From contig VWND01000013.1 in NCBI GenBank assembly GCA_009599575.1, positions 310,001-374,000 of the forward strand: DNA of 64,000 nucleotides, read 5' to 3'. This document shows positions 22,504-35,355 of the stretch, piece after piece. A model generated the notes under the pieces. The model saw only the letters and a program-made list of their open reading frames with translations. It was not told the DNA's origin and made no database searches. The position numbers and the translations under genes were made by a program. This DNA is from Blumeriella jaapii. Lineage: Eukaryota; Ascomycota; Leotiomycetes; Helotiales; Drepanopezizaceae. How positions within the stretch are numbered: position 1 is the first letter of the stretch; every line of letters begins with the position of its first letter.

Positions 22504-22577
22504 TGATCACTACGAGGGTCGAACTCGCGACCTTGGCGTTATTAGCACCACGCTCTAACCAACTGAGCTAAGCGATC
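22504..22577 (-). tRNA. tRNA-Ile (AAU anticodon), no intron
   Basis: The 74-nt sequence folds fully: acceptor GATCGCT/AGTGATC, D-stem GCTC/GAGC, anticodon stem TGGTG/CGCCA with loop CTAATAA (anticodon AAT), T-arm GCGAG-TTCGACC-CTCGT, discriminator A. The B-box-like GGTCGCGAGTTCGACCC is intact. It decodes isoleucine AUU/AUC after A-to-I editing, as usual in eukaryotes. Confidence 0.96.
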
Positions 22578-31028: not shown

Positions 31029-33921
31029 TTAAGAAACCGACCCAATAACAAGAGCTGCCACCCCTTCCTCTTCACTGCGGACGACGATTTTGCTTGTAAC
31101 GCCTGATTTTGTAGAGTACGCCATCCGAATGTTGGCGACGACTCGGCCCCCCGTGACGGTTTTGCCAAAGAGCTGAGGGTGTGTGTAGTGGTGTTGATCG
31201 GCACGTCTGTACCTTCGAGCGGCTGTAACGAAAGGGTCTTGGCAAGTTGCTCAGTGGCATCTGCAATGCTCTTGACCCCACTGAGTTGCAGGGTCTCCTC
31301 AGCCTCCTCACCAGTAGCACCGACTTGCTCCCAAATGTGGTTAAAGTTGCCGGCAAATGCAGGGACAACATAATCACTTCCTGTAAGCTCGAGATCCTCG
31401 ACCTGGTATTCGTCGTCGTATCCGCTCGCCTCTGGCTCACCGGTTGTAGGATCAATTTCCTTTGTGGTAAACTTCAGAATGTTGGTGAAGCTACTGGCCG
31501 AGAAAGAGCCCTCTCCATTGACCTTCTTAAACGACACATAGATGGTGCCTGGCTCATCAGTGACGAGTTTGGCGGCTGGGATGATGAAGTCCTCCTCGAG
31601 TTCCTCTTCTTCCGCCGGCGTAGCAACAACGGAAACGTCCTCAAGCACAGTGTCTGGGAGAGTGTTCTTGACCTCGTACTGCAGCACAATGTGCTCCTTG
31701 AAAATGTGCTTGACCACGCTAACAACGTACTCCGTCTCGGACTCGGTCAGCTCAACAACAGGCGATGACTTCAACACACTTCCATATGCCTTCATCTCCG
31801 GAATCTGAAGGAGCGCTTGTTGGTATTTCTGAGACACAGCAGAAGCTGTTGCTGCAGCCTCGGCGCCGGTTGGTGTAGATTTGGTTGGGCCAGCCTTCGG
31901 TGCTTTGATTGTAGGAGTGATGGTGGTGAGTTTCTTCGTTCTATCTTCCGCATCTGCTTGCTCCTTGGTGACCACTGGAATAGCAGCAATATCGAATGGG
32001 TTCTCGAAGGTTGATTTGTCGTCTGCTGTGACGTACATGACCAATTGGTGCTCGAAATATGGAAGTGCAAACATGTTTTCTGACAAGTCAGCAACGCAAT
32101 GCAAACATCCGAGATTCATTCTTACCGTTTTTGATGAATCGATCGGCCAGCTCATCAGGCTCAGACATAAGTCTCAAGTTCAACGCAGCTCGGTCTCGAA
32201 CTTCGTCATCAACATCGTCCAAACATCTCGTGAGCAGAACTGTAACACTGCGCTTGACCTCAGGGTCCTTCTGTCCAACACCGAACTTCGCCAACGCTGT
32301 GACTGCTGCCGCTCTGACAATTGCATTTTCGAGCACAACTCGATTGTAGATGTACCGAACATATTTAGTTGGTTGGGTTGTTTTGGGTCCTTCCAATCCG
32401 AGAAGATGGAGAATTCGGACAGCCAATTTTGTGAATTCACAGTCCTCAATGAACTCGCATAGATGAGCGAGCGCATCCTCCTTGGAGTCTGGAACGAATT
32501 TGATCAAGTCGAACATGCTCTCCACCACGGCACGCTTGAATTCATACCCCCCCTCGTCTCGTAAAATGCCGCTCAAGAAAGCCAGCATTCCAGCTTGCTT
32601 GTTGGGGAACTTGAGACAAAGCCCCCGGATAGCCTCCACGATCGTAATCTTGAATTCATCGGTAATGTCTGCCATGAAACCAGAGATTTGCTTAATCAGT
32701 CGGTCCACATTAGCTTCATTACCAGTCTTCAGAAGAGTTGTGAGGGCGAACGTAGCAATCGAACGGTTGGTGTTAGAGATGAGGAGTTCGATATCTGGAT
32801 TGCAGGAATGCACGGCTTGTGGCTTGAATGAAGCGAAGTTGTGGAGGATTCTGATGGCCGCAAATTTGGTAACAGCTCGTGGCGACGTCAAGAAAAGTTG
32901 CAATACGTGAATGGCCTGGGAAACCTCGGTATCTGTCACATCTCGCATGTCACAGATTGCCTTGGCCGCCTCGAAATTTACCATCTCACTCTTGTGTCGG
33001 AGCCAGCCGTCCAGAAGTTGAATCATAGGTTTCCGGAGTTGTGGATCCTCCTCTGCTAATTGTGCAGCCAATCGAACAAGCATAACGGTGGCTGCAGGGC
33101 TCTTTACTGCACCTGCAGTTCCAAATTGTTGAACCATCTTGACCAAAGCCATCCTGTCGTGCATTCTCATCTGGTACAAAAGTCCGATGGCGTGGTACTG
33201 TGTCATGGTGGAGTTGTTGACTGGCATCTGATTTCCAGAGGTAGAAAATCCAAGGGAGAATCCTCCAGATGATTTCGTAGAGGATGCGGCTTCCTGTGTT
33301 TCGCTCTGCCATCTTCGGACAACATCACGGGCTATGGGGAGAAGGTGGTATGAGGATACTAGGGCGGCTGAGGATACAGAAGGGTTCTTGTCAACAATGG
33401 CGGTCTTGATGACACGCTCGATACTTTGTACGGTCGATGCCTAACACCGTCAGACCCGTTCCTGCAGTCGCAGATGTGCCTACTCACGTCTATTATCCGG
33501 CAGAGTGCTCGAATGGCGTTCGGTCTGAAAACAGCGTCGGTTCCACCACCAGTATCTTTCATGATTGTACTTGTGACCATGATAATATCCTCTGCCGAAT
33601 GCGCCAACTCCTTGATGATAAGGTGGACCATTTGCCGTAAGCTGGCATCTTTGTTCTGGAACAACTTCGAGATTCCGAAGAATAGGGTGGTTGCTTCATT
33701 CGTAGGGAAACGCTCGCCGGTGTACAAGAGGAGCGCAATCTTCGTCAGAAGGATTCGGCATTTTCGAGGCTGGATAGGGGAGGAATTGAACAGTCGTGCT
33801 GTCCGGCGTTAGCTGTACTCGAGTAGGGGGGGGGATTTGACCAACCCTCCTGAAAGACGGAGGTTCTGTCCACCCTCATGATGCTTGTGTCGGCATCTTC
33901 GTCTTTCTTGCTGTAACTCAT
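31029..33921 (-). CDS. sec21: Coatomer subunit gamma (Sec21), four exons, one-base frameshift near the 3' end
   Basis: Exons 33921-33846, 33798-33488, 33440-32126 and 32079-31029; introns 47, 47 and 46 bp. With one base added the protein is 917 aa, the usual length. Gamma-COP is part of the COPI coat that drives retrograde Golgi-to-ER transport. The N-terminal adaptin-like solenoid (from ARLFNSSPIQPRKCRILLTK) fills exons 2-3. Exon 4 holds the acidic linker and the C-terminal appendage domain (ENMFALPYFEHQL onward, then VEDLELTGSDYVVPAFAGNF). The frame fails at about 31174: THTL should continue LFGKT, but the coding strand reads CTCAGCTC where CTCAAGCTC is needed. Beyond it the conserved ending (RMAYSTKSGVTSKIVVRSEE, stop TAA at 31029-31031) is intact in the next frame. 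Sec21 is essential in yeast, so a consensus error is the likelier cause. Confidence 0.95.
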
Positions 33922-35205
33922 GGCGAAAGAAGTGAGCTCCTCAGCTTCATGGATTGCAGGGGAGGAGGGGGATTTGGAGTATCTTCGTAGTTGAGGTGAT
34001 CTCGAAATCGCGGCAACGTAGCCAGAAGCGCCGTGGGTGCAGACTAGCTCAGACCAAGCGAGCGGAACAACTGGCGGGCGAATTTCGGGGCGGGATTCCG
34101 CCCAAACCAGGCAAAGGAATTTCCCAGACATTCATGTTCTACTGATTATATATCTCTCTTGTGATGCATTGCTTTGTCCTCTCGGTCTTCAGGATCAGCT
34201 GGACCTCGCAAGCCCTTATCTTTGCTGATTGCTTTGTCGCGATTAACTGTACCAGAGTGTTATCAACGATGTCACAGCTAGCAGTAGCATTGGCGGTTAT
34301 CGGATTGGAAGTCTGTCTAGAGAATCCAAGACCAGAAATTGCTTCCAGCACATGCATGTTGATGTTGAACTACAGCTAAGATCATGGACAATGGCCATTG
34401 ATCAATGATATCTTGTTGCTTCATGTACATGGCGGTGTGTTCAATCCTCGTGGCCGTCCGGGTAGCCTTTTTGGAGGCGTTCTGGGACGCAGCATGTTTC
34501 CTTCAAGCTCTGTTTTGCTGGTCCAAAACAAAAGCACCACTATAACTAGGATCCACTATACTGACAGCTGGGTCTACTGATCATTGAGAGAATACATTGA
34601 TCAAGATGCATCCTTTGGCTCGGATCATCGGGGGCTACGAAAGTACGTTCACTAACTTACGTTAGTACACAATCGCTCGAGCATGTATTGCCCATTACCA
34701 CAAGTCAAAATCCCTATAGACTGTTTTACACTGTTTTCTGGACGCACAAGCAATTTTCGTACACTTACAATTCAATATCAGCATCCTTCCTGCTCCTTCG
34801 CAAGCTGTGACAGTTGAACGCTCTGGTGTGGCAAGGACAGGTCTAGTTTCGCAACGCAAGCAGACACACAACAGTGGTCAAGCGAAAACAAATGCTAGCG
34901 GTGGTGGTCCGGCTCATCACTTACGAAGTACAAATGGCACGCAGAACCCAAGCAAAAAATAACGCTTAGCATCGTGCTGCTGGGCAACATTTGCAACTAC
35001 TCAGATTCTCCTGAGGAGGCAAGCAAGTAGCGAGCGTCCGAGGACCAAGGAAATCGAACCCGACACTTGGCGCCAGCACCAACCGCTCGCGGGGTACCCG
35101 AATATCTTCGAGTGCCCCCAAACGCCAAAAAGATGAAAACAACGCCGATAAGCAAAGGTCGCGCAGTTCAACCAACAAACCAAAAAAAAAACACGAAAAA
35201 AAAAA
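33922..35205. other. Intergenic between sec21 and tRNA-Glu
   Basis: The first part is the sec21 promoter. I find no gene in the rest. Directly next to the tRNA are two long A runs on the plus strand (35182-35191 and 35196-35205). Confidence 0.55.
35196..35205 (-). terminator. Pol III terminator of tRNA-Glu
   Basis: Ten consecutive T on the coding (minus) strand start immediately after the discriminator base, followed by a second T run a few bases on. This is a strong RNA polymerase III terminator. Confidence 0.85.
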
Positions 35206-35355
35206 CTCCGCTACGGGGAATCGAACCCCGGTCTCCGCCGTTTTCATGCCGTGTGAACGGGCTCATGAAAAGGCAGTATGCTGACCGTTACTAGGGACCT
35301 TGTTAGTTCAAGATCTGTAGCGAAAGAGAGAATGCGAACCTACCACCATAGCGGA
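35206..35355 (-). tRNA. tRNA-Glu (UUC anticodon) with anticodon-loop intron and a second, spliceosomal-looking insert in the D-arm
   Basis: Removing two inserts gives a perfect 72-nt tRNA-Glu: acceptor TCCGCTA/TAGCGGA, D-arm GTG-TAACGGTCAG-CAT, anticodon stem CTGCC/GGCGG with anticodon TTC, T-arm CGGGG-TTCGATT-CCCCG, discriminator G. The first insert (35241-35265, 25 nt) sits after position 37, the canonical tRNA intron site, and contains TGAAAA complementary to the anticodon loop. The second (35291-35343, 53 nt) lies between positions 12 and 13 of the D-arm. It begins GTAGGT, contains CTAAC 12 nt before its end, and finishes TAG, like this genome's mRNA introns. It also interrupts the A box of the internal Pol III promoter, while the B box is intact. 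Either the gene is active with an extra processing step, or it is a recently interrupted copy. Confidence 0.9.
35291..35343 (-). other. 53-nt intron-like insert in the D-arm of tRNA-Glu
   Basis: Starts GTAGGT, branch-like GAACTAACAAGG, ends CCCTAG. Length and signals match the mRNA introns of neighbouring genes (46-68 nt). TAGG near its start can pair with CCTA near its end, so a structured RNA insert is also possible. The boundary is ambiguous by one base because G flanks both ends. Confidence 0.8.

Follow-up and report, generated by a model that had tools for sequence, protein, structure and literature searches.

A probable spliceosomal intron in the D-arm of a Blumeriella jaapii tRNA-Glu(UUC) gene, and similar interruptions in at least seven other tRNA genes

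The window, meaning the whole 64,000-nt stretch of contig VWND01000013.1 that was analyzed, carries on its minus strand a tRNA-Glu(UUC) gene that is interrupted twice. Its parts are listed below with the basis of each assignment; the paralogue mentioned is a second tRNA-Glu(UUC) gene of the same genome (L002).

35206..35355, minus strand: whole tRNA-Glu(UUC) gene with two introns (sequence reading and excision scan)
35344..35355, minus strand: exon 1, 12 nt, tRNA positions 1-12 (identical in the paralogue)
35291..35343, minus strand: D-arm intron of spliceosome type, 53 nt, between positions 12 and 13 (same site in the paralogue, interior diverged)
35338..35343, minus strand: 5' splice site GTAGGT (GTAAGT in the paralogue; copy comparison)
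35302..35306, minus strand: branch-site motif CTAAC, its A 12 nt from the intron end in both copies (copy comparison)
35291..35293, minus strand: 3' splice site TAG (CAG in the paralogue; copy comparison)
35266..35290, minus strand: exon 2, 25 nt, positions 13-37, anticodon UUC (sequence reading)
35241..35265, minus strand: canonical intron, 25 nt, after position 37 (sequence reading)
35206..35240, minus strand: exon 3, 35 nt, positions 38-73 (sequence reading)
35217..35227, minus strand: B box GGTTCGATTCC (B-box pattern)
35196..35205, minus strand: T10 run, a Pol III-type terminator (sequence reading)

Excision of 35343-35291 and 35265-35241 yielded a 72-nt tRNA-Glu(UUC) followed by the T10 run. 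With the GT-AG excision, the completed cloverleaf of each Glu copy scored 23.5, against a threshold of 20 for plain genes. The sequence, coordinates, two inserts, and T10 run given in the original prediction were all confirmed by this re-reading and excision. The 25-nt intron occupies the canonical 37/38 position of tRNA introns; the 53-nt insert is separate from it, lies at 12/13, and has the form GTAGGT...CTAAC...TAG. The ends of this insert are not unique by structure alone, because several near-optimal excisions score alike (nine in the window gene, three in the paralogue). The GT-AG excision has two placements, one base apart (GGT/GGTAGG or GGTG/GTAGGT). For the paralogue, the GT-AG solution scores 0.5 less than a 50-nt excision in which CAG is retained. 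The gene was absent from the ARAGORN calls and unmatched by Rfam at gathering thresholds, each of which returned just a tRNA-Ile at 22504-22577 in the window; with long introns allowed, ARAGORN mislabeled the gene as tRNA-Cys.

For comparison with mRNA introns of the same fungus, three introns were placed by alignment to a 917-aa homologue in a gamma-COP gene at 33.9-31.0 kb, about 1.3 kb from the tRNA-Glu gene:

33799..33845, minus strand: gamma-COP mRNA intron 1, 47 nt, GTTGGT..CTAAC..CAG (placed by homology)
33441..33487, minus strand: gamma-COP mRNA intron 2, 47 nt, GTGAGT..CTGAC..TAG (placed by homology)
32080..32125, minus strand: gamma-COP mRNA intron 3, 46 nt, GTAAGA..CTGAC..CAG (placed by homology)

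Branch-to-end distances in introns 1, 2, and 3 were 10, 9, and 8 nt, respectively. The claim that the 53-nt insert is exactly like the neighboring mRNA introns held for the splicing signals; these three introns are 46-47 nt, a little shorter than 53 nt. The same relationship, matching signals at somewhat greater length, applied to the tRNA inserts described below. Relative to homologues, the gamma-COP frame shows a one-base slip at HTL(K)LFGK (about 31173 in the window), indicating either a one-base assembly error or a frameshift. The closest gamma-COP homologues were from Leptodontidium, Halenospora, and Diplocarpon, and a Sir2-like protein of this genome was closest to those of Drepanopeziza brunnea (75%) and Diplocarpon, similarities that point to a helotialean ascomycete.

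The genome was sampled through one assembly (G000; 47.4 Mb in 91 contigs). A BLAST search with the window locus identified the second tRNA-Glu(UUC) gene at G000:C1:1383429, with an insert at the same position, which answered the earlier question of whether other Glu(UUC) genes carry it; no significant similarity between the two loci was detected by BLAST outside the gene. Because this second gene has unrelated flanks, the window insert is no assembly accident, and an artefact was ruled out more broadly by the finding of differing inserts at eight separate loci on five contigs. The exons of the Glu pair showed 0/72 mismatches, whereas the inserts (53 nt each) differed by 6 mismatches and 4 gap columns in 55, and the canonical introns by 7 mismatches and 2 gap columns in 26. 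The splice signals stayed valid in both copies (GTAGGT/GTAAGT, CTAAC/CTAAC, and TAG/CAG, that is, GTRRGT/CTAAC/YAG). A third Glu(UUC) gene (L081, G000:C1:211217-211304, minus strand) was uninterrupted and diverged, with a different acceptor stem and A73. It supplies the intact copy that had been asked about and refutes the notion that GAA decoding is provided solely by interrupted genes. An intron family spread by copying was likewise rejected, the BLAST search of the Glu locus having returned the paralogue and otherwise the 3' half of Glu(CUG) only; likeness among inserts of different isoacceptors was compared by eye alone.

The survey was then extended to the tRNA complement of the assembly. 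Loci were gathered by an Rfam search (63 of 2167 candidates scored), by B-box-plus-T-run patterns (from the matches listed, at least 14 of which fell outside the census), and by isoacceptor patterns; such a census is blind to genes whose B box departs from these patterns or whose T-arm holds an insert. Each candidate was subjected to a scan that scores cloverleaf pairing and a few conserved bases and can remove a stretch of 25-160 nt between position 8 and the T-stem. A plain tRNA was defined by a score of at least 20, and interrupted genes reached 20.5 only after insert removal. The rules of the scan were fixed after the Gln and Pro genes were known, and the Pro insert was first recognized by eye. 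Among 72 distinct B-box/T-stem candidates, 55 were plain, 8 required the removal of an insert, and 9 were neither, in a set that includes some chance motifs and some mitochondrial loci on C36, a contig taken to be mitochondrial by inference. Among the candidates scored, many tRNA matches on C36 recurred on the same strand at a distance of about 61.4 kb, as if a circular mitochondrial genome had been assembled more than once round. Two further loci, L092 and L126, had been flagged through the acceptor threshold of an earlier scan and proved to be uninterrupted. The eight interrupted genes are as follows:

Glu(UUC), two genes (the window gene and L002): insert after nucleotide 12, 53 nt each, beginning GTAGGT and GTAAGT
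Gln(CUG), two genes (L085, the same as L053; and L099): insert after nucleotide 19, 54 and 61 nt, both beginning GTATGT
Leu(CAA), one gene (L104): insert after nucleotide 9, 51 nt, beginning GTAAGC
Arg(CCG), one gene (L082, the same as L043): insert after nucleotide 28, 97 nt, GC-AG, beginning GCAAGT
Pro(AGG), two genes (L143 and L152): insert in the variable loop, 52 and 53 nt, both beginning GTAAGT

The inserts occupy five tRNA positions and measure 51-61 nt in seven genes and 97 nt in one, compared with 46-47 nt in the three mRNA introns. All eight genes possess a GT/GC-AG solution with a CTRAC motif within 0.5 of the best score (CTAAC in seven, CTGAC in one), and the branch A lies 9-13 nt before the insert end in every case. 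The number of near-optimal excisions ranged from 3-10 in Glu, Leu, and Arg to 32 in Gln and 163-164 in Pro; by these counts, structure alone fixes the insert ends well in some genes and barely in Pro and Gln. In Gln, the fold prefers a 3' end at GAAG; a YAG lies 5 nt before it. A T-T mismatch is present in the T-stem of both Gln(CUG) copies, whose T score is 3.0 of 5.

Several controls addressed how readily such solutions arise. GT-AG ends were available in seven of the eight genes, the eighth being GC-AG, and the next-best end pairs reached 5/8. When CTRAC was also demanded, the 255 other end-dinucleotide pairs gave at most 4/8 (mean 0.635) versus 7/8 for GT-AG, and 60 random pentamers put in place of CTRAC gave a maximum of 2. 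Of 320 trials with shuffled upstream sequence, 19 produced an excision that folds and none produced an intron-like one. In random segments of the window, with three sliding placements, GT(GCAAG)...AG plus CTRAC occurred at a rate of 1.65e-4. A loose intron-motif count over the window was not clearly enriched (16 versus 10.75, sd 3.5, in 20 shuffles). Exact-pattern scans for interrupted genes in prokaryote and viral collections gave 0 matches. Among the seven further interrupted loci, Rfam at E up to 1 recognized none as a tRNA. ARAGORN with introns allowed, applied to five of the eight interrupted genes (the window gene, L001, among them), missed L085 and L104 and mis-called L001, L082, and L099. 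Across 60 regions of the assembly given to ARAGORN, isoacceptors such as Phe, Tyr, Cys, Lys(UUU), Val(AAC), and Gly(UCC) were absent from its calls.

The two other duplicated isoacceptors behaved like the Glu pair. The Gln(CUG) exons were identical (0/71 different) in copies whose inserts differ by 14 mismatches and 7 gap columns in 61, with GTATGT and CTRAC kept. The Pro(AGG) exons plus canonical intron differed at 1/90 positions, whereas the inserts were identical in 36 of 64 columns, with GTAAGTT, CTAAC, and CAG kept; this contrast between stable exons and a diverged insert with retained signals is the trace that selection for splicing should leave. Both Gln(CUG) genes found were interrupted, each with 1 mismatch to the Gln pattern; at 3 mismatches this pattern reached the plain Gln(UUG) gene L083 and five further places that lie outside the count. 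Both genes within 3 mismatches of the Pro pattern were interrupted as well. Plain genes exist for Gln(UUG) (three: L083, L147, and L148) and for Pro(UGG) (two: L144 and L145), and their tRNAs might, through wobble, stand in for the interrupted Gln and Pro isoacceptors. For Leu(CAA), one gene has the insert (L104) and one lacks it (L093); since L093 and L081 are intact, the Leu(CAA) and Glu(UUC) isoacceptors are independent of insert removal.

Insertions in the D- or T-arm of eukaryotic tRNA genes mostly hit a single member of a large synonymous gene set and are presumed to mark pseudogenes (PMC4090602). By analogy, introns or fragments could have landed in spare, unexpressed copies here, a reading that matches this usual assumption and the existence of intact Glu(UUC) and Leu(CAA) genes. 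We nevertheless regard it as improbable, because the exon drift that it predicts is absent: all three pairs have nearly or fully identical exons next to diverged inserts and flanks, and the splice signals are kept. Both Gln(CUG) and both Pro(AGG) genes found are interrupted, B boxes are retained in all eight genes, and seven have a T-run that starts no more than about 8 nt beyond the 3' end. The related option of a decaying copy, raised for the window gene in the original prediction, does not fit either, as the exons are unchanged while the insert interiors diverge.

Interruption by an intron of this kind extends to the U6 snRNA gene (L134 281-439; G000:C7 about 1619180-1619338, plus strand), the one match among 47 of 2846 candidates scored with Rfam. 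A 51-nt GT-AG intron lies near its 5' end: CTTTCTTCGCCTTCGGGCATTTGGTC stands upstream, followed by GTAAGT, and the intron (GTAAGT...CTAAC...CAG, branch A 10 nt from the 3' end) precedes AATTTGAAACGATACAGAG. Removing the 51 nt joins GGTC to AATTTGAAACGATACAGAG, which we take to be the fungal U6 sequence. The Rfam match starts within the intron, its 5' part being filled with a poor fit by CTAACCTTCATCAG and adjacent intron letters; automated annotation would misplace the 5' end of U6 because the match absorbs the intron as a 5' stem. Since U6 is interrupted besides the tRNAs, several Pol III genes of this fungus bear such introns. mRNA-type U6 introns occur in other fungi too. The U6 snRNA of Schizosaccharomyces pombe has an mRNA-type intron that is spliced (PMC10484740), and the B. 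jaapii genes resemble it in that a spliceosomal-type intron lies in a Pol III transcript, U6 included; they differ in that the hosts are also tRNAs, from five isoacceptor families, each with an endonuclease-type intron as well.

The promoter elements were assessed with an A-box matrix built from 40 plain genes (plain median, 10.5; random 99th percentile, 3.2). The genes for Glu and Leu have an A box split by the insert; in those for Gln, Arg, and Pro it is intact. In Glu the split A box, as originally claimed, was borne out by a score of 3.0. With a one-base skip (the best of five), this rose to 9.4-9.5, the box being rebuilt in part by the 5' splice site G/GTARGT; in Leu (L104) the score was -9.8 and was not restored. 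The A-to-B distance was 112-194 bp in the seven genes measured. The gene without a close T-run is L152, where the first run of at least four Ts comes about 28 nt downstream. Spliceosomes normally act on Pol II transcripts, and the split A boxes of Glu and Leu together with the lack of a close T-run in L152 could be read as signs that Pol II makes longer RNAs, which are spliced like mRNA before the tRNA is excised. This scheme is highly improbable given the close T-run of the other seven genes, the intact A boxes of Gln, Arg, and Pro, and the interruption of U6, a Pol III RNA whose S. pombe counterpart is spliced (PMC10484740). The unspliced Glu transcript was predicted to fold strongly (z -3.8) into a structure that lacks the normal D- and T-arms, with the branch motif (35306-35302) in the loop of a 7-bp intron hairpin; by eye, the paralogue keeps this hairpin with one pair changed. 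Because that predicted fold is strong and without these arms, the Glu precursor is probably bound before adopting it, or unwound.

That the inserts are instead tRNA-endonuclease introns excised through a bulge-helix-bulge, as in archaea (20/21, 29/30, and other sites) and the D-loop of Cyanidioschyzon merolae (PMC4090602, PMC3978253), with a spliceosomal resemblance by chance, is a reading to which we give a very low probability: although Glu attains 3/4 core pairs at an alternative placement, the 4-bp core of the strict form (a 4-bp helix between two 3-nt bulges) was incomplete in U6 and in the seven tRNA inserts tested (all but that of the second Pro copy), and the GT/GC-AG solutions with CTRAC are present in 8/8 genes. 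The bulge-helix-bulge proposed earlier as a check on the window insert did not form in its strict version, the maximum of 3/4 pairs being reached by both Glu copies and Arg.

The observations are best explained if the window gene is a working nuclear tRNA-Glu(UUC) gene whose D-arm holds a U2-type spliceosomal intron, such introns being present in a minimum of eight tRNA genes and in U6. Maturation of these tRNAs would require the spliceosome as well as the tRNA endonuclease; on the sequence evidence we consider this account very probable. In outline, Pol III would make the Glu transcript (B box and T-run present, A box split), and the spliceosome would remove the 53-nt intron in the nucleus by way of GTRRGT, CTRAC, and AG. 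This removal would restore the D-arm, after which the tRNA endonuclease could recognize the mature body and cut out the 25-nt intron. The endonuclease recognizes introns by measuring the mature tRNA body, and we infer the order of the two steps from this mechanism. The introns may have been gained several times, at different tRNA positions, possibly by reverse splicing into Pol III RNAs, a route that is speculative. Among the options put forward in the original prediction, processing by the two machineries together, spliceosome and tRNA endonuclease, gives the best fit, with signals kept, interiors diverged, exons unchanged, eight genes affected, and U6 interrupted; the gain of an intron by a tRNA gene fits too, in the form of several separate gains.

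These introns share features with, and depart from, each of the known classes. Introns of eukaryotic nuclear tRNAs are ascribed to the tRNA endonuclease and spliceosomal introns to Pol II transcripts, with U6 as the exception. The inserts differ from the canonical 37/38 introns, one of which is present besides in all eight genes, in position, in splice motifs (which the canonical introns lack), and in the enzyme presumed to remove them. They resemble the mRNA introns of the same fungus in GTNNGT/GTAAGA..CTRAC..YAG signals (branch-to-end 8-10 nt in the three mRNA introns checked) but reside in a structured Pol III RNA, the shortest first exons having 9-12 nt of tRNA plus a leader. The tRNA introns of archaea, C. 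merolae, and nucleomorphs are similar in occupying D-arm, anticodon-stem, or variable-region sites, sometimes with a second, canonical intron (PMC4090602, PMC3978253). In archaea and C. merolae, removal relies on a bulge-helix-bulge and the tRNA endonuclease, in contrast to the GT-AG ends, branch site, and absence of a strict bulge-helix-bulge where tested here; for nucleomorph tRNA introns, the source describes the removal mechanism as unknown (PMC4090602). In the portions of the open-access literature covered by our search, including those of PMC4494063 and PMC12350175, spliceosomal introns are nowhere reported for nuclear tRNA genes.

We think it likely, with some reserve, that the spliceosome is a regular tRNA-maturation machine in this lineage. 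On this view, U6 and genes of five tRNA families, all of them Pol III genes, would have acquired spliceosomal introns on repeated occasions, and every Gln(CUG) and Pro(AGG) gene found would depend on the spliceosome. Each such tRNA would need two unrelated splicing systems acting in order, which would tie decoding to spliceosome activity. Several tRNAs with spliceosomal introns would break the division of labor between endonuclease and spliceosome. Intron gain into structured Pol III RNAs also becomes directly testable, the Leu(CAA) pair offering a natural comparison with and without an insert. Real tRNA genes would then be escaping standard tRNA finders, and isoacceptors that appear to be missing from fungal annotations may be of this kind.

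A separate observation concerns four tRNA-Asp(GUC) genes (L137, L138, L139, and L140, on C8, C45, C50, and C73), which share a near-identical 3' flank of about 40 nt, TTCTCTAGAGTTCATGgCCCTGAGC..ATGCtCGGA, that is hairpin-like by eye; their remaining flanks differ. Rfam at E up to 1 matched nothing but the tRNA at these four loci, and the shared flank is possibly a tRNA-linked small RNA.
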